Part shown: in pieces, positions 36,057-47,271 of the stretch | How the letters are laid out: each line of letters begins with the position of its first letter | How positions within the stretch are numbered: the stretch's first letter is position 1 | Source: Phycisphaerae bacterium | Lineage (GTDB): Bacteria > Planctomycetota > Phycisphaerae > Phycisphaerales > SM1A02 | NCBI GenBank assembly: GCA_002709295.1 | Contig: PAQL01000037.1 | Location: 1-50,732 of the forward strand | Direction of reading: 5' to 3' | Length of the DNA stretch: 50,732 bases | Made by a program: the position numbers and the translations under genes | Notes under the pieces: model-generated | The model's input: the letters and a program-made list of their open reading frames with translations, nothing else | Told to the model about the DNA's origin: nothing | Database searches by the model: none

Positions 36057-36178
36057 GCCAGAATCATAGCCAGTGTCGGGGACGGGGTCATGTCGGATGA
36101 CCGTCGAGCCGATCCCGGAGACGAAGACGGACCCACGTGGTGCATGAAGCACCACCGACGGGACCCAAGAGAGGAAGC

Positions 36179-38242
36179 ATGTCTCCACGCCAAGCGCTCG
36201 TGTCCTTGCTGGCCACAGTTGGAATGGGGTTGCCAAGCGCAGCCATGGCCGCCACCGTCAAGGTGGGCAGCTCTTCAAGTGCCGACTACGCCGACGTTGA
36301 CGCCGCTATCGCCGCAGCCACTCCGGGTGAAGACCTCACCGTGGTACTCGAAGCCGGCGACTATTCCACAGCCAACATCAACCGCGCTGGCAAGACCGAC
36401 TTCAAGCTCGTGGGCTTCGGGAATGCCAGCCTCGCAGGCATCCGGGTCACCCACGCGGACGCCGAGGTGTCGGTGAGCCGCGTCGACATCGGTGCGGACG
36501 GCATCCAGGTTTTCCAAGGCGACCTCGTGTTGGAGGCGCTGGCCATTGAGCCCACGCCGGCCCGCCCGGTCGCTGGCCCCGCCCTCCAAGTCGGCACCGG
36601 CGCCACAGTCCGGGCCAACCAGGTTGTGGTCTCCCATTGGTACGGGGCTGAGGCACCGGTCGTACTTCAACCCGGTTCCACAGCCGAGCTTCAGACCTTC
36701 GGCATCTTCGCCTCCCAGGGCTCGCGAGCAGGCGCCATCTGGAGTCAGGACGCCACCCTGTCGGCCACCACCGTGTACGCCATCGACACGACCTCAAGCT
36801 CCGGCACCGGAGCACTCGAGCTCGACGGGGGCACCGCCATGCTGGCCGACTGTGACTTCGACACGGTCCGCGGCGTGGTGGCCGGCGGCATTCGCGTGCT
36901 GAATGAGGCCTCACTGGTCGGCTACGACCTCGTCTTCATGGACAACAGCGCCCGCAGCGGCGCGGCGATTCGCCTTGAGTCAGGTGACATCCGCCTCGTG
37001 CGCACCTTCGCGCGGGGCGGCGCCGCAGACCAGGGCGGTGTGCTGTGGATGGACGGCGGCACGGCCGACGTGCGCAACGCGGACTGGAGCAACAACCGCG
37101 CCATCAAGTCCGGCGGCACGGTGTACCAGTCGGGGGGCACGCTTGAGGTCGCCTATGCCACCTGGACCGAAGCCGTGGCCGCTCAGGGCGCAGGGCTCTA
37201 CTCCCGCGGTGGCAGCACCGCGCTGTCCGGGGTGCTCCTCACCCACACGGAAGGTTCCGCCATCACCGTGGAGGCGACCGGCACAGTGGACTTCTCCGAC
37301 GGACTGCTCTGGGGCATCGGCTCCAACACCACCATCGAAGGGACCGTGAACTACGAGGTCAACGAGGCCTACCGTGACCCGGCCTTCATCAACGCTCAGC
37401 TCGACGATTTTGCGCTCACCCTGGACTCGCCGGCCCTCGACCTCGGCATCGGCGGAGAGCTCGACCCCGACGGCAGCGCCTCTGACGCCGGCATGTACGG
37501 CGGGCCCGACGCTTGGCCGCTCGCAGACTCGGACGGCGACGGATTCGTCTACGGGCGTGACTGCGACGACACCCGCAACGACGTGCACGAAGGTGCCGTA
37601 GATGTCTTCTACGATGGCATCGACGCCAACTGTGACGGCAGCAGCGACTACGACCAGGATGGCGATGGCTTCGACGCGGCCTCTTTTTCGGGTGCAGACT
37701 GCGACGACACGGATGCAGGCGTGAACCCGGACGCCAGCGAGTCCGGTGGCGACGGCATCGACGCCAACTGCGATGGCTTCGATCACGCCGATGCCGATCG
37801 GGATGGCTGGCCCGCCGACCTCGACTGCGACGACAACGCCTCGGATGTGCACCCCGGCGCAGAGGACGCTTGGTACGACGGCGTGGACGCCGACTGCGCA
37901 GGCAACGACGACTTCGATCAAGACGGCGACGGTCACCGGGCAGAGTCCGCTGGTGGCGATGACTGCAACGACACCAACGCGCGCCAGTACCCCGGCTACC
38001 CCGACACCCCCGAAGACGGCATCGACCAGGACTGCGACGGCCGCGACCCCCAAAAGCAGGCCGAGCAGGAAGACGAGGTCACGACCCTGTCGCCCGCCTA
38101 CGAAGCCGAGACCCCCAGCGAGGCGAGCCCCACACTCTCCGCCCAGTCCACCGGAGGCTGCTCCACCATCGACCGCTCAGCGAGTGGCGCCTGGAGCCTT
38201 CTCCTCCTCGGACTGGTGGGCCTCGTCGGCCGCCGCCGCTGA
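36179..38242 (+). CDS. Surface protein: beta-helix, MopE-like Asp/Cys repeats, MYXO-CTERM tail
   Basis: A 687-residue exported protein. The signal peptide ends near Ala-Met-Ala at 28. Residues about 30-420 look like a right-handed parallel beta-helix with repeated short strands (for example GGTADVRNADWSNNRAI). Residues about 450-620 hold four MopE-like repeats of the pattern DxDGDGF ... DCDDT ... GxDANCDG, a known putative metal-binding repeat. The C-terminus is GGCSTIDRSASGAWSLLLLG followed by hydrophobic residues and a final Arg-Arg-Arg, a MYXO-CTERM sorting tail whose Cys is expected to be processed and anchored at the cell surface. ATG at 36179 follows GAGGAAGC. It is divergent from the third kinase. 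Confidence 0.85.
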   Translation: MSPRQALVSLLATVGMGLPSAAMAATVKVGSSSSADYADVDAAIAAATPGEDLTVVLEAGDYSTANINRAGKTDFKLVGFGNASLAGIRVTHADAEVSVSRVDIGADGIQVFQGDLVLEALAIEPTPARPVAGPALQVGTGATVRANQVVVSHWYGAEAPVVLQPGSTAELQTFGIFASQGSRAGAIWSQDATLSATTVYAIDTTSSSGTGALELDGGTAMLADCDFDTVRGVVAGGIRVLNEASLVGYDLVFMDNSARSGAAIRLESGDIRLVRTFARGGAADQGGVLWMDGGTADVRNADWSNNRAIKSGGTVYQSGGTLEVAYATWTEAVAAQGAGLYSRGGSTALSGVLLTHTEGSAITVEATGTVDFSDGLLWGIGSNTTIEGTVNYEVNEAYRDPAFINAQLDDFALTLDSPALDLGIGGELDPDGSASDAGMYGGPDAWPLADSDGDGFVYGRDCDDTRNDVHEGAVDVFYDGIDANCDGSSDYDQDGDGFDAASFSGADCDDTDAGVNPDASESGGDGIDANCDGFDHADADRDGWPADLDCDDNASDVHPGAEDAWYDGVDADCAGNDDFDQDGDGHRAESAGGDDCNDTNARQYPGYPDTPEDGIDQDCDGRDPQKQAEQEDEVTTLSPAYEAETPSEASPTLSAQSTGGCSTIDRSASGAWSLLLLGLVGLVGRRR

Positions 38243-39830: not shown

Positions 39831-41660
39831 CTACTGAAGCACCTCGGCGACATTGTCTGCCATGCGGCCATGGATGGCCCGGGCGAGATCGCGCTCGATC
39901 CGACGCTGTGCAAACGGAGCCGTCAGCTGGTCGAGCTTCTCGCCAAGACTCTGGATCCGCCGACGGTCGGTCCCCCCGAGGGCAGCCTCGAGGTCGTCGG
40001 CCAAGGCCACGAACGCATCCCCCTCCCCGCTGTCGAGCAGGTCAGCGTCGACGGTGAGCGCCTTGCGCAGGGAATGAAGGATCTGTTCGCCCTCCACCCG
40101 AGCGTCGATGAGCAGTCTCTCGTCGATGTCCTCTTCGGCATTGTCGATGGCGTCGTCGAGCATCTGCTCCACTTCGTCATCAGACAGACCGTAGGTGGGG
40201 CGGACGTCGACGGTGGCCGTGGCCCCAGTGTGCTCCTCGACAGCACTCACCGTGAGGATGCCGTCGGCATCGACATCGAACTCCACCTTCACGCGCGGCA
40301 TCCCCGCCGGCATGGGCGGAATGCCGAGCTTGAAGCGCGCGAGCGAGCGATTGTGGCGCGCCATCTCCCGCTCCCCCTGCACCACATGCAGCTCCACATG
40401 GGTCTGGTCATCCACGTGGGTGGTGAAGGTCTGCGACGCAGTCGCCGGAATGCTGGAGGTGCGCGGAATGATCCGCTCCGTGGTCCCCCCCATCATCTCT
40501 ACACCCAGCGACAGGGGCACCACATCGACCAGGAGAAGGTCATCGGACAGCTCGCTGTGCCCGGTGAGCAGGTCGGCCTGAATGGCCGCACCCAGGGCCA
40601 CCACCTTGTCGGGATCGAGGTCGCAGTGCGGCGTGCGCCCAAAGAGCTCACCCACGAAGTGACGGACCAGGGGAACGCGGGTGGAACCGCCGACCAGGAC
40701 CACCTCATCGACGTCGGCTGCGGTGAGCTCGGCATCGGACAAGGCCTGCAGACAGGCCGCCCGGGTGCGCTCGACAATGGGCTTGATGAGCTGCTCGAAG
40801 GTGCTCCGGTCGATCCCGGCTTCGACGGCCTGACCCGCGAGCTCCACCTCGATGAGTGTGCTCTCGGCGTCTGTGAGGGCGCGCTTTGCCCGCTCCGCGG
40901 CCATGACTGCCGCCCGGAAGGTGGGGCCGTCTGCATCGGTGACGCCCGCCTGCTGGAGCAACAGCGCGGCCAGCGCCTGGTCGAAGTCGTCGCCACCCAG
41001 CTGGGTGTCGCCTGCCGTGCTCAGAACCTGAAAGAAGCCGTCGGAGAGCTCGAGAATGCTGATGTCGAAGGTGCCGCCCCCGAGGTCGTAGACCGCCACC
41101 CGCTGTCCGTCTTGCGCGGTGTTCAGCCCGTAGGCCAGCGCCGCCGCGGTGGGTTCATTGAGCAGCCGGAGCACCTCGATGCCTGCCACTCGCGCAGCAT
41201 CCCGCGTCGCCTGACGCTGGGCATCATCAAAGTAGGCGGGCACCGTGATGACGGCGCCAGCGGGCCGCGCAAACAAGCACTCCTCGGCCCGGGCGTGCAG
41301 CAGTCGCAGCACGAAGCTCGACAGCTCCAGCGGATTGATGGTGCGTGGGCCGACGCGAAAGCGGACCATGCCGTCGTCATCATCAACCAGGTCGTAGCGA
41401 TACAGCGCGGCTTCCTCGGCCACATCCGACGCCCCGCGCCCCATGAAGCGCTTGAAGCTCGTGAAGGTCGTGCCACCCGCCTCACCGGCCGCTGCGATTG
41501 CGGGGTAGCCCACCGACTTTGGGACCCCGTCATCGCCCACGCGAACGGCCGAAGGCAACAGAGCGCGCTCGTCGTCATCGAGAAGCACCCGAGGTTTGCC
41601 GCCGAGGACCACCGCCACGAGAGAGTGGGTGGTGCCGAGGTCAATGCCGATGTTGGCCAT
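39831..41660 (-). CDS. hscA: Hsp70-type chaperone HscA for Fe-S cluster transfer
   Basis: A 609-residue DnaK-family protein. The ATPase domain has [14 protein letters not shown] at the start, [31 protein letters not shown], and [17 protein letters not shown]. The substrate-binding domain starts near 385 ([17 protein letters not shown]). Its position after hscB in an ISC operon and length similar to HscA (about 615) separate it from housekeeping DnaK (about 640). HscA releases clusters from IscU by binding the LPPVK motif, which IscU here carries. ATG at 41660, 8 bases after the hscB stop. Confidence 0.9.
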
Positions 41661-41668
41661 GTCTTTGT

Positions 41669-42244
41669 CTACTCCGACGCGGGGCTCGCGAGCTTCCGTG
41701 CAGTGCGCAGGTAGCGCTGTCGAGCGATGAGCGCCGGTATCTGCTCAAGCCCCTCCCCGCTGTCATCGTACCTGCGCATGATGGTTGCGATCTGCTCCAG
41801 GTTGGCTGCATCGAGGGCCTCGACCTGCGCCGCCACGCTGTCGTCTCCCATGCGGGCTGCCATCTGGAGCTCGAACATGCACTCAAGAAAGTCGTCTCCG
41901 ACTTCAGGCCCACCTTGCTCAGGGAGGTCGGTCTGGCCGGTCGCAAGGTACAGGGCCCGCCGACTCGGCTCGCGCAGCACGGCGCGGGCGTCCATCGCCC
42001 GTGCTGTCCACTGCTGGGCCATTCGCTTCTCGACCGCGCGGGCACGGGTGAAGCGGTCTGGGTGGGTCTGCCGCGTCAGCTTCCGCCACGCCTTGTCCAC
42101 TGCGCGCACGTCAACGTCCCACTTGCGTGGCAAGCCGAGAAGACTGAAGAAGTCGCTCTCTTTCAGCGGCGGCGGTGGCTGGAGCTTCCCGCATCCAGGA
42201 CACACGGCTCCACCCACAGGCTCGCGGCAATTCCAGCAGATCAT
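41669..42244 (-). CDS. hscB: J-domain co-chaperone HscB with N-terminal zinc ribbon
   Basis: A 191-residue protein. The N-terminus [20 protein letters not shown] has a CX2C ... CX2C zinc ribbon, as in some bacterial and mitochondrial HscB proteins. The J domain (about 30-95) starts [20 protein letters not shown] and has HPDRF for stimulation of HscA. The C-terminal three-helix part (about 110-185) normally binds IscU. I chose the ATG at 42244 over an upstream start at 42307 because the upstream residues overlap iscA by 23 bases and lack family similarity. Confidence 0.88.
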
Positions 42245-42284
42245 GGATGGACGTCCAGGGGCGAGCACCACACCGCCGAGGCGG

Positions 42285-42617
42285 TCACAGGGTGAAGGAG
42301 TCCCCACACGAGCACGACCGATTCGACAGCGGGTTGCGGAACAGGAAGCCTGTCTTCACCATTGTCTTTTCAAAGTCGAGCTCGGACCCGTTGATGAACA
42401 GGTAGCTCTTGCGGTCGACTGCGACCGTGACCTCCTGGTCGGCGAACTCGAAGATCTTGTCCTTCGGCTCCGGCGAATCGACCAGGTCCATGAAGTAGGT
42501 CAGTCCCGAGCAGCCACCACCGCGCACCCCCACCCGCAGCACAGCTTCGGGCGTCTGACGCTTCTTCTTGATGGTCCGCACACGGAGTGCGGCTGCCTCG
42601 CTGATGGTGATGGCCAT
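42285..42617 (-). CDS. iscA: A-type Fe-S carrier protein IscA
   Basis: A 110-residue protein with the A-type pattern: VRGGGCSGLTYFMDLVDSP (first Cys), acidic middle, and NPLSNRSCSCGDSF at the end, where the last two cysteines read CSCG instead of the usual CGCG. All three cluster-binding cysteines are kept. It holds or delivers 2Fe-2S/4Fe-4S clusters or iron. ATG 42617 follows GGAGGCCACC. It is 27 bases after iscU and 40 before hscB. Confidence 0.9.
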   Translation of the reverse strand: MAITISEAAALRVRTIKKKRQTPEAVLRVGVRGGGCSGLTYFMDLVDSPEPKDKIFEFADQEVTVAVDRKSYLFINGSELDFEKTMVKTGFLFRNPLSNRSCSCGDSFTL

Positions 42618-42644: not shown

Positions 42645-43031
42645 TCAGCCTTCGGTGCGCTTCTGCCGGTAGTCCGCAATGGCGGCCTTGATGGCATCTT
42701 CAGCCAGCACAGAGCAGTGAATCTTCACGGGGGGAAGCGCCAGCTCACGGGCGATCTCGGCATTGGAGACCTGCTCCGCTTCGACCACTGACTTGCCCTT
42801 CACCATTGTGGTGACAAGCGAGCTGGACGCAATCGCGGAACCACAGCCGAAGGTCTTGAACTTGGCGTCTTCGATGATGCCGTCGTCGTTGATCTTGAGC
42901 TGAAGCTTCATGACGTCGCCACATGCAGGCGCGCCGACGAGGCCGGTCCCGACCATGGGGTCAGCCTTGTCGAGGCTTCCCACGTTCTGGGGGTTTTCGT
43001 AGTGGTCGATGACCTTTTGGCTGTATCCCAC
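42645..43031 (-). CDS. iscU: Fe-S cluster scaffold IscU
   Basis: A 128-residue scaffold with all three cluster-ligand cysteines: VGAPACGDVMKLQL, FKTFGCGSAIASSS and LPPVKIHCSVLAEDAI, plus the Asp of GD next to the first Cys that eases cluster release. LPPVK is the site bound by HscA. The start is a GTG at 43031 with GGAG six bases upstream. It follows iscS by 34 bases. Confidence 0.93.
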   Translation of the reverse strand: MGYSQKVIDHYENPQNVGSLDKADPMVGTGLVGAPACGDVMKLQLKINDDGIIEDAKFKTFGCGSAIASSSLVTTMVKGKSVVEAEQVSNAEIARELALPPVKIHCSVLAEDAIKAAIADYRQKRTEG

Positions 43032-43065: not shown

Positions 43066-44295
43066 TCAGTGCGCGGTCCACTGGATGGACTTGAGGTCGA
43101 TGCCTTCCTGGACCATCTCGTACAGCGGACTCATCTCGCGCAGGAAGCGGACTTTTCTCGTGATGAGCTCAACGGCATAGTCTACCTCGGCTTCGGTGTT
43201 GAAGCGACCCAAGCCAAAGCGGATCGAGGTGTGTGCCAGCTCGACGTCGACGCCGAGGGCGCGCAGCACGTATGAGGGCTCCAGACTCGCAGACGTGCAC
43301 GCAGATCCCGACGAGCAGGCGATCTCCTTGATGCCCATCATCATGGCCTCGCCCTCAACGTACGCAAAGCTCACGTTGAGGTTGTTCGGCAGACGGTGTT
43401 CCCAGGAGCCGTTGATGTAGAGTTCATCGAGGTTGGCGCGAAGGCCGTCCCACAGTCGGTCGCGCAAGGCGCGCACCTTGTCGACGCCACCAGACGCGAT
43501 GGACTCTGCGGCGAGCTCGGCGGCCTTGCCCATGCCCACAATCTGGTGAGTGGGCAGGGTGCCCGAGCGCATTCCGCGTTCGTGGCCACCGCCGTCGATG
43601 ATGGGCTGAACCCGGACGCGCGGCCGGCCGCGGCGAACAAACAGCGCGCCGATGCCCTTCGGGCCGTACATCTTGTGGGCCGACATGCTCAGCAGGTCGA
43701 TCTTCATGGCCCGCACGTCGATCGGCATCCACGCCAGTGCCTGCACACCGTCGCAGTGGAAGAGGACACCATTCTCGCGGCAGATGGCGCCGATCTCAGC
43801 AATGGGCTGGACCACACCGATCTCGTTGTTGGCGAACATCACGCTGACCAGGGTGGTGTCATCGCGGATGGCGGCCCTGAGCGCGTCGAGGGAGATGAGA
43901 CCTTCCGAGTCGACCTCGAGGTAGGTCACCTCGAAGCCCTCTCGCTCCAGTGCATGGCAGGAGTCGAGGATGGCCTTGTGCTCGGTCGACACCGTGACGA
44001 TGTGCTTGCCTTTCCGAGCGAGGTAGCGGGCCGCACCCTTGAGCGCGAGGTTGTTGGACTCCGTGGCACCAGAGGTGAACACGATCTCCTTCGGCTGTGC
44101 GCCGATGAGCGACGCGACCTGCTGGCGTGCAGTCGCCACGGCATCCCGCGCCACCCAGCCGTAGGCGTGCGCACGGCTGGCCGGGTTGCCGTAGTGCTCG
44201 AAGAGGTAGGGCACCATGGCATCGACCACCCGCGGATCACACGGGGTGGTCGCGTTGTTGTCGAAGTACAGTGGGAGCTTCAGCTCAGTGGTCAT
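43066..44295 (-). CDS. iscS: Cysteine desulfurase IscS
   Basis: A 409-residue PLP enzyme that takes sulfur from cysteine to build clusters on IscU. Landmarks: [18 protein letters not shown] at the start, [14 protein letters not shown] (PLP phosphate loop), [10 protein letters not shown] (PLP-stacking His), [20 protein letters not shown] (Schiff-base Lys) and [20 protein letters not shown] with the persulfide Cys in SSGSACTS, typical of group I IscS/NifS. ATG 44295 follows GGAGTCCCC. It is 33 bases after the merR-type gene. The cyaY product encoded at 28869 is its likely regulator. Confidence 0.93.
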
Positions 44296-44328
44296 GGGGA
44301 CTCCAGCGTCGCGAGCGACGCGCAGCTG

Positions 44329-44868
44329 TCAGCCGTGGGCGTGGACAGCCGCAACAAGTACGGGCTGTGGACCGTCGCCGTGGGCTGCAGCCTCACAAGT
44401 TCGGCAAGCGCTGCGATGGGTATCTGGCGAGCAGGATGAGCACGCCGACAGGTAGTGCAAACTTTCTTGCAGCTCAGATTCAAGAGCCTGCATCCGCTGC
44501 AAGAGTTCTTGTGTAACCAAGAGCTTGCTGGCGTAAAAGGCCCGAAGCTCATCCATCGCTGCAGGGCCGTTGTCCTGCTCGTGCAGCGCTGCGAGGAATT
44601 TGCCGATTTCCGGTAACGAAAAGCCCAGCTCCTGGAGCCGGTCAATCCAGTGAATGCGCACCAGCGCGGAGGCATCGTATTGACGAAAGCCCCCCTTGGT
44701 GCGACGAGCAGGGACCAGCAGCCCCAGCTCTTCATAGAAACGGATGGCCCGACGGGTCTTCCCCGTCTTTTCAGCGAGCTCACCCACGCGCAGCAGCTTC
44801 TCCTCTCCCTTTGGGGGATCAGCTGCCGACGCTTCGGCGCGAGGCTGTGGTGTTGTGGCCGTCGTCAT
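44329..44868 (-). CDS. MerR-family regulator with CX2C-X8-CX2C tail, head of ISC operon
   Basis: A 179-residue regulator. The winged-helix DNA-binding part (about 25-95) has LLRVGELAEKTGKTRRAIRF, then YEELGLLVPARRTKGGFRQY, and LVRIHWIDRLQELGFSLPEI, a clear MerR signature. A dimerisation helix (about 100-138) is followed by four cysteines, C143, C146, C155 and C158, giving CX2C-X8-CX2C, then a short His-containing tail. SoxR has CX2CXCX5C for its 2Fe-2S cluster at the same relative place; metal sensors such as ZntR and CueR have only two or three. Position directly before iscS, with no Rrf2-type IscR in the operon, suggests it senses Fe-S status or iron/zinc and controls the operon. That is inference. 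Confidence 0.88.
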   Translation of the reverse strand: MTTATTPQPRAEASAADPPKGEEKLLRVGELAEKTGKTRRAIRFYEELGLLVPARRTKGGFRQYDASALVRIHWIDRLQELGFSLPEIGKFLAALHEQDNGPAAMDELRAFYASKLLVTQELLQRMQALESELQESLHYLSACSSCSPDTHRSACRTCEAAAHGDGPQPVLVAAVHAHG

Positions 44869-44884
44869 GTCTCGACGGTAACCG

Positions 44885-44908
44885 AACCTTTACGTACACG
44901 TAAGGGTT
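44885..44908. promoter_or_regulatory. Dyad operator upstream of the merR-type gene
   Basis: AACCTTTACGT and ACGTAAGGGTT are inverted repeats of 11 bases with one mismatch, separated by two bases, 16 bases before the merR-type start codon. MerR regulators bind dyads of this sort between the -35 and -10 of their own promoter. It is AT-richer than its surroundings. Confidence 0.65.
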
Positions 44909-44970
44909 TATTGAGAAAAACCAGCCTGCCGCTCAATCAGTCGATGCTCAGCTCACAACGGCGAACCGAA

Positions 44971-47271
44971 TCACGACCCGGACCGGTGCAATGGAAGCCC
45001 TCGCGGCAGCAGCGGACGCCATGGTCGACGGGACAGCGGCACCCAGCCCCAGTGATGGACCCAGCGCTCCACCCGGACGCCATGGCGACTCAGGCGCACC
45101 CTCACCGTCCCATCTCGGTCGGTCCGAACCACCTGACGCCCACGCCAGCTGGCCAGCACAGCGGCGTGCGGATGACCAAAGCGGTTGTCTTGTCCGCAAG
45201 AGATCACCACCCAGTCGGGGTCGGTTGCGGCAACAAGCCCGGCTGTCGATGATGTTCGGCTGCCATGATGCGGCGCTTGAAGAACCTCCACAGATGGCAG
45301 CTGTGGCGCCAGCCACCGCTCCGCGACCGCCTCGATGTCTCCAGTCAGCAAGATCCCCTTCTCACCATGCTCAAGGTGCAGAACCAGTGAGTCATCGTTG
45401 TCTTTTGGACGACGCATGGCCGCCGCCCCCACCGCGGAACGCCAGCCCGGCATGGGGTGCAAGATCGGCACGCCTGTGACGGGACCATCTCGAGCGAGGG
45501 CGACCGGTATGCGCCTCGCAGCGAGCGTGCGCCAGACCCTCCGGTAGGCGGACTCTTCGCCGACCGGCGGCCGCGCGGCCACGAATCGTCCCACATCGAG
45601 CTTGGCGATGACTGCCTCCAGACCGCCGAGATGGTCGCTGTCAGGGTGGGTGAGAAGAACCGCATCGAGCTCGGTGTGGCCCTCCGTGCGCAACCATCGG
45701 AGCACCCGTTCGGAGGGCGGTCCCCCGTCCACCAGCCACCGTCGACCATCGGGAAAGCGCACGAAGACCGCGTCGCCCTGGCCGACACTGAGAAAGGTCA
45801 CCTGCAGCTCGTCGTGTTGCAGCGGACAGCTGCGTGCGCCAAGGATCACCATCGCGAGCGGTATGGCTGCCCAGGCCTGCCGACGGAGCGCCACTGCAAC
45901 GGCGAGACACAGGGCGCCCAAGGGACCCACCGCAGGGTTCCAGGGCGCCACGTCAAGCGTCTCCAGAAAGAGCAGCGACAGCTCGACGGCCTGGTCTCCC
46001 ATCCAGAGCGCCGCGGGCTGGAGCAAGGCCGGGCCATGCAGCGCAACGAGCGCAGCTGGCACCACCACGGTGCCAAAGATGGGACCGACAACCGCGTTGG
46101 CCAGAGGACTCAGAGGCGACAGCTCTTGGAACCACAAGGCCGTCAGGGGGAGTGTCCCCGCCATCGCGCCGAGGGTGACCGCCAGCCCCTCCAGCCCTCT
46201 GGCAACCGGCCATGGCAGATCTGGTGGAAGCCACCGGCTAATCCGAGGTGAGACAGCGAGAATCCCCATCACCGCACCAAAGCTGAGACCGAAGCCGAGC
46301 TCCTCGACCACACTTGCGTCGACCAGCACCACGGCGATGGCGGCCGCCGCGAGCAGTGACCAGGGCGTCACCGCCCGTCCCACGGCGCGGGCCAGGACCC
46401 CACCCGTCACCATCACCACAGCCCGCTGGGTCGATACCGGCCAGCCCACCTGCTGGGCATACAAGGCCGCGGCACCAACCGTCAACACCGCCTGAAGCGC
46501 CCGCAGCCATGGCGCCGCCGAGGGTCGCGCCAGCCTCGCCAGCAGCCTCGTACCCAGGCTGCCGACCACGAGGTACACAAGCCCCGCCACAAGGCCGATG
46601 TGTAGCCCGCTGATTGCGAGCAGATGGGCCGTCCCAGTGCGCTGCAGCAGGGCCCGCAGCCCGGGGTCGATGCCGGACTTGCGACCGGTGGCCAGAGCGA
46701 CGAGCACATCCCCATGGCGTGCCCTTCCGAGCCCCAGTGGAGCGCTAGGCGCCTCGCCACCCAGCTCGATCCACCGCACAACCCGGCGTCCACGGCGACC
46801 GGCGCGGCGGTCTGCAGCCGTGGGATGGGGCGCGTGAGGCAGTCGTACGGCGGGTCTCGACGGGCGTGTCTGCGCCGACAATCGGGTGCCCACAGCAGGT
46901 GCGGGGTCTGGGTAGAAGGACAAGCGCCAGGAGCCTCGGGGGGTCTCCACCACAGCCGAGCGACCTGAAGACTGCGTGACCGTTCCCTGAACCACACCAT
47001 GGTCAGCAATCGCTGGAGTCGGCTCCTGCGGACGCCCCAAGGCGAGGCCAAGCATCATCGCGGACAGTCCCACCGCAAGGCACGCACTCCACCTGGGTCT
47101 GCACACGGCCCCAAGGAGCGCCAGGGCCAGCGAAGCCAGCCATGCCAGCTCCGGCAAGGGGGCATACCGACCCAACACCGCACCCAGGACCATGAGCAGG
47201 GCGATGGTCGGCAGTGGTGCCTGCGACCATCGGGGCCACCCACCCCGCACCTTGTTGCGCCTGTCCCTCAT
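44971..47271 (-). CDS. comEC: ComEC/Rec2 DNA uptake channel protein
   Basis: A 766-residue polytopic protein for moving single-stranded DNA across the inner membrane. An N-terminal helical pair and a small soluble domain (about 40-190) precede the Competence channel domain, whose signature LLQRTGTAHLLAISGLHIGL is present. The C-terminal metallo-beta-lactamase-like domain begins VTFLSVGQGDAVFVRF and has the metal motif LLTHPDSDHLGG and the later LLTGDIEAVAE and APHHGSRTSS, so nuclease activity is plausible. The start is the ATG at 47271; a longer reading upstream to 47352 has no ribosome site. It stops 102 bases upstream of the merR-type gene start, reading toward it. Confidence 0.88.
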   Translation of the reverse strand: MRDRRNKVRGGWPRWSQAPLPTIALLMVLGAVLGRYAPLPELAWLASLALALLGAVCRPRWSACLAVGLSAMMLGLALGRPQEPTPAIADHGVVQGTVTQSSGRSAVVETPRGSWRLSFYPDPAPAVGTRLSAQTRPSRPAVRLPHAPHPTAADRRAGRRGRRVVRWIELGGEAPSAPLGLGRARHGDVLVALATGRKSGIDPGLRALLQRTGTAHLLAISGLHIGLVAGLVYLVVGSLGTRLLARLARPSAAPWLRALQAVLTVGAAALYAQQVGWPVSTQRAVVMVTGGVLARAVGRAVTPWSLLAAAAIAVVLVDASVVEELGFGLSFGAVMGILAVSPRISRWLPPDLPWPVARGLEGLAVTLGAMAGTLPLTALWFQELSPLSPLANAVVGPIFGTVVVPAALVALHGPALLQPAALWMGDQAVELSLLFLETLDVAPWNPAVGPLGALCLAVAVALRRQAWAAIPLAMVILGARSCPLQHDELQVTFLSVGQGDAVFVRFPDGRRWLVDGGPPSERVLRWLRTEGHTELDAVLLTHPDSDHLGGLEAVIAKLDVGRFVAARPPVGEESAYRRVWRTLAARRIPVALARDGPVTGVPILHPMPGWRSAVGAAAMRRPKDNDDSLVLHLEHGEKGILLTGDIEAVAERWLAPQLPSVEVLQAPHHGSRTSSTAGLVAATDPDWVVISCGQDNRFGHPHAAVLASWRGRQVVRTDRDGTVRVRLSRHGVRVERWVHHWGWVPLSRRPWRPLLPRGLPLHRSGS

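Follow-up and report, generated by a model that had tools for sequence, protein, structure and literature searches.

Organization of the ISC operon

The window, the whole stretch of 50,732 nucleotides analysed here, is contig C37 of the 3.68-Mb genome G000. On its minus strand it carries an operon of the ISC system for iron-sulfur (Fe-S) cluster assembly, the first gene of which, P0001 (44329..44868), encodes a MerR-family regulator of 179 amino acids. The cysteine desulfurase gene iscS follows in the same direction (43066..44295; 666 bits with NF010611, cut-off 548, and just short of TIGR02006 at 643.0 against 643.2). Next come the scaffold gene iscU (42645..43031; TIGR01999, 223 bits, cut-off 192), a gene for an IscA-like A-type carrier (42285..42617; TIGR00049 only, 109 bits, cut-off 59), the J-protein gene hscB (41669..42307; best model NF002935, 80 bits, below the cut-off of 198) and hscA for the Hsp70 of the system (39831..41660; TIGR01991, 740 bits, cut-off 709). 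An earlier sequence-only reading had given the same order after iscS, which is confirmed here, with hscB recognized by sub-cut-off HscB matches; it had also placed merR 33 bases before iscS in the same direction, and the gap from 44296 to 44328, up to the iscS start at 44295, agrees with this. The listed start of hscB is a GTG that overlaps iscA, so the gene may begin further in. Both the window HscB (41669-42307, minus strand) and that of the related locus L023 (3178-3741, plus strand) have a CX2C...CX2C pattern at the N-terminus, which we take to resemble that of eukaryotic HSC20. The next open reading frame 3' of hscA on the same strand has 498 residues in the window list, and no ferredoxin gene was seen by eye among the open reading frames listed for that stretch. 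Upstream of merR, and on the same strand, lies comEC, which ends at 44971 and leaves a gap of 102 bases (44869-44970). Transcription of the operon would start either from a promoter inside these 102 bases or from further upstream.

The regulator matches PF13411 (E 3e-17), PF00376 and PF09278, all over cut-off. As the sequence-only reading had described, this MerR protein carries four cysteines, C143, C146, C155 and C158, in a CX2C-X8-CX2C motif (codons 143-158; 44395..44442, minus strand). It has the winged helix-turn-helix, the MerR signature and the long dimerisation helix of the MerR superfamily. A structure model built from three sequences predicts a helix at residues 101-140, and its PDB matches include MerR proteins; with a mean pLDDT of 78.8, and of 72-76 for the blocks around the cysteines, the model describes the overall fold only. 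The best NCBIfam models, MerR(Hg), CueR and ZntR, give at most 66.2 bits and none reaches its cut-off (at least 143). In SoxR, a MerR protein with a [2Fe-2S] cluster, four C-terminal cysteines follow the dimerisation helix in the spacing CX2CXCX5C. The window protein shares the MerR fold and the four C-terminal cysteines with SoxR, which stands at rank 18 of the Foldseek matches (2zhg), and differs from it in the spacing of these cysteines. A SoxR identity was rejected because TIGR01950 stays below cut-off (49.6 bits against 116.9) and because CX2C-X8-CX2C and its variants depart from the SoxR pattern. An IscR identity was rejected as well, since the domain and family matches of the window protein are all of MerR type, with no Rrf2 model among them.

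Origin of the contig

In 100 related genomes, two of them from the same genus, the best match to the window MerR has an E value of 1.8e-15 and 34% identity. The tetranucleotide usage of the window correlates at 0.75-0.83 with 11 other stretches of G000, which correlate among themselves at 0.94-0.98. On the grounds of the weak matches and the deviant tetranucleotide use, an origin in the main organism of the bin was judged unlikely, and the contig is probably mis-binned. Closer relatives of the regulator were found at L022, from an uncultured proteobacterium that NCBI files under Pseudomonadota (70% identity to the window MerR), and at L023, from Deltaproteobacteria bacterium BH17, a member of the Myxococcota according to NCBI (62%). 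Both loci have comEC upstream of merR and iscS next. The window correlates with L022 at 0.89-0.91 and with the shorter L023 at only 0.71-0.72, so tetranucleotide composition alone names no lineage. The genome of L022 falls among genomes drawn from the phylum of the L023 genome, and the phylum of the 282 genomes compared below is probably the Myxococcota. Elsewhere in the window, a 701-residue protein (36137-38242, plus strand) ends in a MYXO-CTERM-like tail (TIGR03382, 15.6 bits, cut-off 15.85). All matches from a plasmid search were below 60% identity.

Linkage to cysteine desulfurase genes

The association of this regulator with ISC genes is wider than a single locus and characterizes a family spread across the phylum (probably Myxococcota). 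Some match to the window MerR at E 1e-12 occurs in at least 131 of the 282 phylum genomes; at most 12 candidates per genome were scored, so that these counts are lower bounds, and the loci taken were all MerR matches of at least 93 bits plus 12 weaker ones. At least 85 of the 282 genomes encode a MerR protein at 93 bits or more; 83 of these have a gene for cysteine desulfurase directly downstream. Together with the window these make 84 linked rows, 82 of which have an estimated gap of at most 80 nt between merR and the desulfurase gene, and genes for IscU, IscA and the chaperones come next in most linked loci. Of the two unlinked genomes, G327 has its merR at a contig end and its iscS-iscU at the start of another contig, and G209 has only a paralogue, which adjoins a deoxynucleoside kinase (dNK) gene. 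The objection foreseen at the outset, that homologues might mostly be unlinked to Fe-S genes, thus fails for the close family. Rows for L026 and L028 (duplicates of L022 and L023) and for L141 (an in-frame stop, too short after extraction) were left out, and L076, whose upstream region is cut by a contig end, was left out of the operator count.

Three genomes (G228, G271 and G304) have merR followed only by a more distant desulfurase gene, with no other ISC gene following. At L181, L182 and L183 the MerR gene stands with a lone distant cysteine desulfurase gene, and neither the rest of ISC nor an operator was seen there; a nitrilase-like gene lies downstream in L181 and L183 (by eye).

Operator and promoter geometry

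A 24-bp dyad, AACCCTTACGTGTACGTAAAGGTT in minus-strand reading, lies upstream of merR at 44885..44908. Its arms (44885-44895 and 44898-44908) pair at 10 of 11 positions around a 2-nt centre, and 16 bases (44869-44884) separate it from the ATG, which is where the sequence-only reading had put an 11-base inverted repeat. The core of the dyad resembles, as we assume, the site of the MerR protein LiuR. Across relatives the operator has the consensus AAC[CT]CTNACG[TC]NN[AG]CGTNAG[GA]GTT. When upstream regions were compared, as had been proposed, a matching operator was found in 80 of 83 (82 loci and the window), scored by a dyad-seeded matrix and exceeding the 99% level set by 1660 shuffles. The lowest score among these 80, 7.7 at L094, is under that of the highest shuffle (12.3). 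Because the seeded matrix was trained on the same sequences, the regions were rescored with held-out matrices trained only on rows less than 50% identical (less than 60% where these were too few). Again 80 of the 83 regions, the same ones as before, score higher than any of 81 control stretches taken from the iscS coding sequence, and the place of the site is unchanged in 79 of the 83; the window dyad scores 31.0 with a held-out matrix from distant relatives (maximum of those controls, 3.4). The three regions that lack the operator are those of the lone-desulfurase genomes.

A genome-wide search for a strict 22-base pattern, with one mismatch permitted, covered 80 genomes that have the MerR gene (G000 and 79 of the 84 from the phylum) and 80 that lack it (the first 80 by handle of 198). 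The pattern is present in 55 of the former and in none of the latter, and the reversed-pattern control matched in 1 and 3 of the 80 genomes. Only one site was found in 47 of the 55, and in 54 a site lies immediately before merR; the exception, G337, has its site (L189) near a contig end, and this is probably the isc site itself. A chance dyad was rejected on its conservation, the held-out scores and the absence of the pattern from the 80 control genomes.

Of the 80 regions with an operator, 60 have a TTGAC that lies 10-45 nt ahead of the dyad (mean of 200 rounds of shuffling 2.4, maximum 8). With spacers of 16-19 bp considered, 55 of 61 cases have their best -10 element at 17 bp, and the dyad starts between three bases inside the -10 element and 16 bases after it in 57 of the 61. 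Classical MerR activators have their operator within a promoter spacer of 19-20 bp, although this is not a trait of every MerR protein, and SoxR activates through a long spacer; here the spacer is mostly 17 bp, and the dyad lies downstream of it. A dyad at or after the -10 element is in the place of a polymerase blocker, not in that of a classical MerR activator. This repressor layout is not universal, as TTGAC stands from six bases inside the end of the dyad to 15 bases after it in 14 of 80 regions (four of which have both layouts), and 8 of 80, the window included, have no TTGAC near the dyad. By eye, following the layout in relatives, a weak candidate promoter of the window can be placed at 44907..44936 (minus strand), with TTGAGC (44931-44936), 18 nt and AATAAA (44907-44912), where the candidate -10 overlaps the dyad by two bases; a consensus promoter scan gave no promoter at this place.

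The four cysteines and their paralogues

All 84 linked rows have C143, C146 and C158, and G136 alone lacks C155, so that 83 rows, at 36-70% identity to the window protein, keep all four cysteines. Their spacing is 2-8-2 in 56 rows, 2-9-2 in 14, 3-8-2 in 11, and 2-7-2 and 2-10-2 once each, besides the row that lacks C155. Of the 20 rows without a scored linkage, 19 also keep the four cysteines, namely 18 paralogues and L108, the linked gene of G327 that is cut by the contig end. In a quick midpoint-rooted tree, ISC-linked, dNK-type and lone-desulfurase rows share one side of a branch with 98% support, and twelve unlinked rows form an outgroup. Seven paralogue rows make up one clade, which falls within the ISC-linked rows at a fork that the tree does not resolve. 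A dNK gene adjoins four of these seven (by eye, one Pfam-checked), at L135, L136, L138 and L139, and the operator matrix finds altered versions at all seven, with 14-29 bits. A QueG gene lies near the dNK-type paralogue of L138. In the outgroup, folE, the gene for GTP cyclohydrolase I, adjoins five rows (L148 and L152, Pfam-checked; L145, L147 and L149, by eye), with the four-cysteine (C4) MerR gene just before it; the ISC-type operator was not found upstream of any of the twelve outgroup rows (matrix scores at most 0.2).

The expectation that a MerR gene with this motif would stand next to iscS therefore holds within the close family, in 83 of 85 genomes, and fails for the C4 paralogues beside folE and dNK genes. 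As these paralogues keep the motif, it is no mark of Fe-S control by itself; judged by its gene neighbourhoods, the C4 motif reaches beyond the ISC role.

Further operator sites

In G189, G295 and G272 an additional operator site lies before the gene for a cysteine synthase of the PALP family, and JAB, ThiS and ThiF-rhodanese genes come next. We take these to be parts of a sulfur-carrier route to cysteine, comparable to CysM-Mec-CysO-MoeZ. A cysteine synthase match is present in 58 of the 80 genomes searched, and the best 30 matches were taken as loci. Seven of these best 30 have sites of 27-36 bits (G295, G324, G272, G189, G193, G347 and G267), and JAB/ThiS and ThiF genes follow in all seven; the other 23 score at most 3.6 bits, while 600 shuffles reach at most 7.6. 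In larger genomes (G173, G204, G279, G359, G382 and others) an Rrf2 gene lies 2-4 kb before the cysteine synthase gene on the same strand and is possibly a separate cysteine regulator. Other extra sites were found in G102 before a gene whose product has the C-terminal domain of NifU (Nfu), before a dNK-type paralogue in G159 (L191), and in ambiguous surroundings in G243 (L187) and G335 (L190).

A candidate feedback repressor of ISC

With its gene and its operator both at the assembly operon, this MerR family has the arrangement expected of feedback regulators of Fe-S assembly. From these comparisons of sequence, a role of the MerR protein as a regulator of ISC is well supported and highly probable. 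An Fe-S cofactor on the four cysteines is likely, with zinc as its main rival, and we consider it rather probable that the protein is a dedicated, autoregulating feedback repressor of ISC that carries such a cluster and is analogous to IscR and RisR. The sequence-only reading had proposed a separate Fe-S or metal sensor of the MerR family that regulates its own operon; the position at the head of ISC across the phylum and the conserved operator favour this, whereas the cysteine motif that had suggested the cluster is not diagnostic.

The proposed repressor would work as follows. A MerR dimer would bind the conserved dyad, which covers the -10 and start region in most relatives, and once bound would keep RNA polymerase off the promoter. 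The four C-terminal cysteines that follow the dimerisation helix would hold an Fe-S cluster supplied by the same machinery. By analogy with RisR and IscR, the holo-protein would repress the ISC operon when clusters are plentiful; under iron shortage or cluster damage, the apo-protein would release the operator, and ISC, together with cysteine synthesis and Nfu in some species, would be derepressed. On balance, and slightly less firmly, we favour the wider reading in which a MerR-fold Fe-S sensor that covers the -10 and start region, rather than activating across a lengthened spacer, is the dedicated repressor of ISC, probably the main assembly system, over a large part of the phylum. A third protein family, after Rrf2 (IscR and RisR) and SufR, would then have been recruited as a feedback regulator of Fe-S supply, and in some species it would also tie cluster assembly to sulfur-carrier cysteine synthesis. 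That 19 of the 20 rows with no scored linkage retain the same cysteines speaks against the Fe-S part of this reading, and the lack of an operator at 23 of the best 30 synthase loci speaks against shared control of cysteine synthesis.

The same autorepressor might instead use its C4 site for structural or sensory zinc and respond to zinc, to another metal or to some other ligand, an alternative that deserves attention although we think it unlikely. CX2C-Xn-CX2C is a common zinc-binding pattern, the paralogues, whose spacing is identical or close to it, stand beside dNK genes and beside folE, whose product is a zinc enzyme, and the best NCBIfam models of the window protein, MerR(Hg), CueR and ZntR, all stay below cut-off. 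However, the close family is tied to Fe-S assembly, an Rrf2 gene occupies the same place in some other genomes, and the further operator sites, as far as they are open to interpretation, are found at genes for cysteine synthesis and Nfu rather than at those for metal transporters. Less probable still is a sensor of sulfur supply, which would react to cysteine, sulfide or persulfide on its thiols and couple desulfurase to cysteine synthesis as a MerR counterpart of CymR. Such a sensor would fit a desulfurase partner even in the three genomes in which no other ISC gene follows, and the operators before the cysteine synthase-JAB/ThiS-ThiF operon, but these occur at just seven of the best 30 synthase loci, and no target is as widespread as the ISC operon, chaperone genes included. 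That merR is merely a neighbour with an unrelated target of its own is very improbable: MerR genes are common and C4 paralogues occur in some of the same genomes, but the linkage persists across diverged genomes and the operator occurs once in 47 of the 55 positive genomes and at this gene in 54.

Comparison with known regulators of Fe-S assembly

Bacterial sensing of the cell's own Fe-S supply is known mainly for Rrf2 proteins and SufR. In E. coli, iscR is the first gene of the isc operon, and IscR is a feedback repressor of isc. The MerR gene here holds the same first place and its product would have the same role; unlike it, IscR belongs to the Rrf2 family, and IscR was found over cut-off in none of the 282 genomes (best match 130 bits, cut-off 207.55). 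A MerR protein in the seat of IscR, in some genomes with no detected Rrf2 protein, would if correct be an independent invention of Fe-S supply control, and the comparison suggests that bacteria have invented such feedback more than once. The MerR-ISC system would then be a natural experiment on what an Fe-S supply sensor needs. The operator is defined well enough for additional targets to be predicted in individual genomes, and the four cysteines would allow a direct test of the mechanism on a single purified protein.

The nearest experimental parallel is RisR of Myxococcus xanthus. RisR is an Rrf2 protein with an Fe-S cluster; in its holo form it represses both isc and suf, and at the isc promoter its footprint covers the -10 element and the start site (PMC9973013). 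The isc operon of M. xanthus is iscSUA-hscBA-fdx-tRNA, without an iscR orthologue (PMC9973013). Both RisR and the MerR protein would be myxobacterial repressors of Fe-S assembly with a palindromic site over the -10 and start of isc, a cysteine-bound cluster (putative for MerR) and an action on the supply machinery itself. RisR differs in being an Rrf2 protein with three cysteines, encoded in the suf operon, with the motif GAC-N7-GTC (PMC9973013), whereas here a MerR protein with four cysteines is encoded at the head of isc, its motif is different, and 76 of 80 genomes have no SufB. SufR (PMC8593673) is likewise a cluster-binding repressor outside the Rrf2 family that acts through a conserved palindrome on an Fe-S assembly operon and on itself, but it is of DeoR type, has its cysteines in the spacing C-X12-C-X13-C-X14-C and acts on a suf operon. 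The word MerR is absent from the main text of PMC9973013 and from that of PMC8593673, and no description of a MerR regulator of isc was found by title or abstract start in the open-access literature, a body that leaves subscription papers mostly outside.

The general statement that ISC operons are usually under IscR, which the sequence-only reading had given as background, needs qualifying in this phylum: no IscR match is over cut-off, M. xanthus relies on RisR, a distant Rrf2 protein, and Rrf2 genes precede iscS in some genomes that lack the MerR linkage. Sub-cut-off matches to the IscR model occur in 88 of the 282 genomes, 19 of them among the 84 MerR genomes, so another Rrf2 protein may exert control in those 19. 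An Rrf2 match is absent from 26 of the 84 genomes with the MerR gene, versus 7 of the 198 without it (compared by a Fisher test that ignores relatedness). IscU is over cut-off in 99 of the 282 genomes, 74 of which have the MerR-desulfurase pair. The remaining 25 comprise 11 with an Rrf2 gene just before iscS (one Pfam-checked), 9 with neither MerR nor Rrf2 (tblastn, one query each) and 5 cut by contig ends. As SUF is missing from most of the MerR-bearing genomes (SufB in only 4 of 80), ISC is probably their main assembly system. Three of the four genomes with SufB, G139, G169 and G346, have operons of iscS, iscA and chaperone genes, with IscU not found at E 1e-30.
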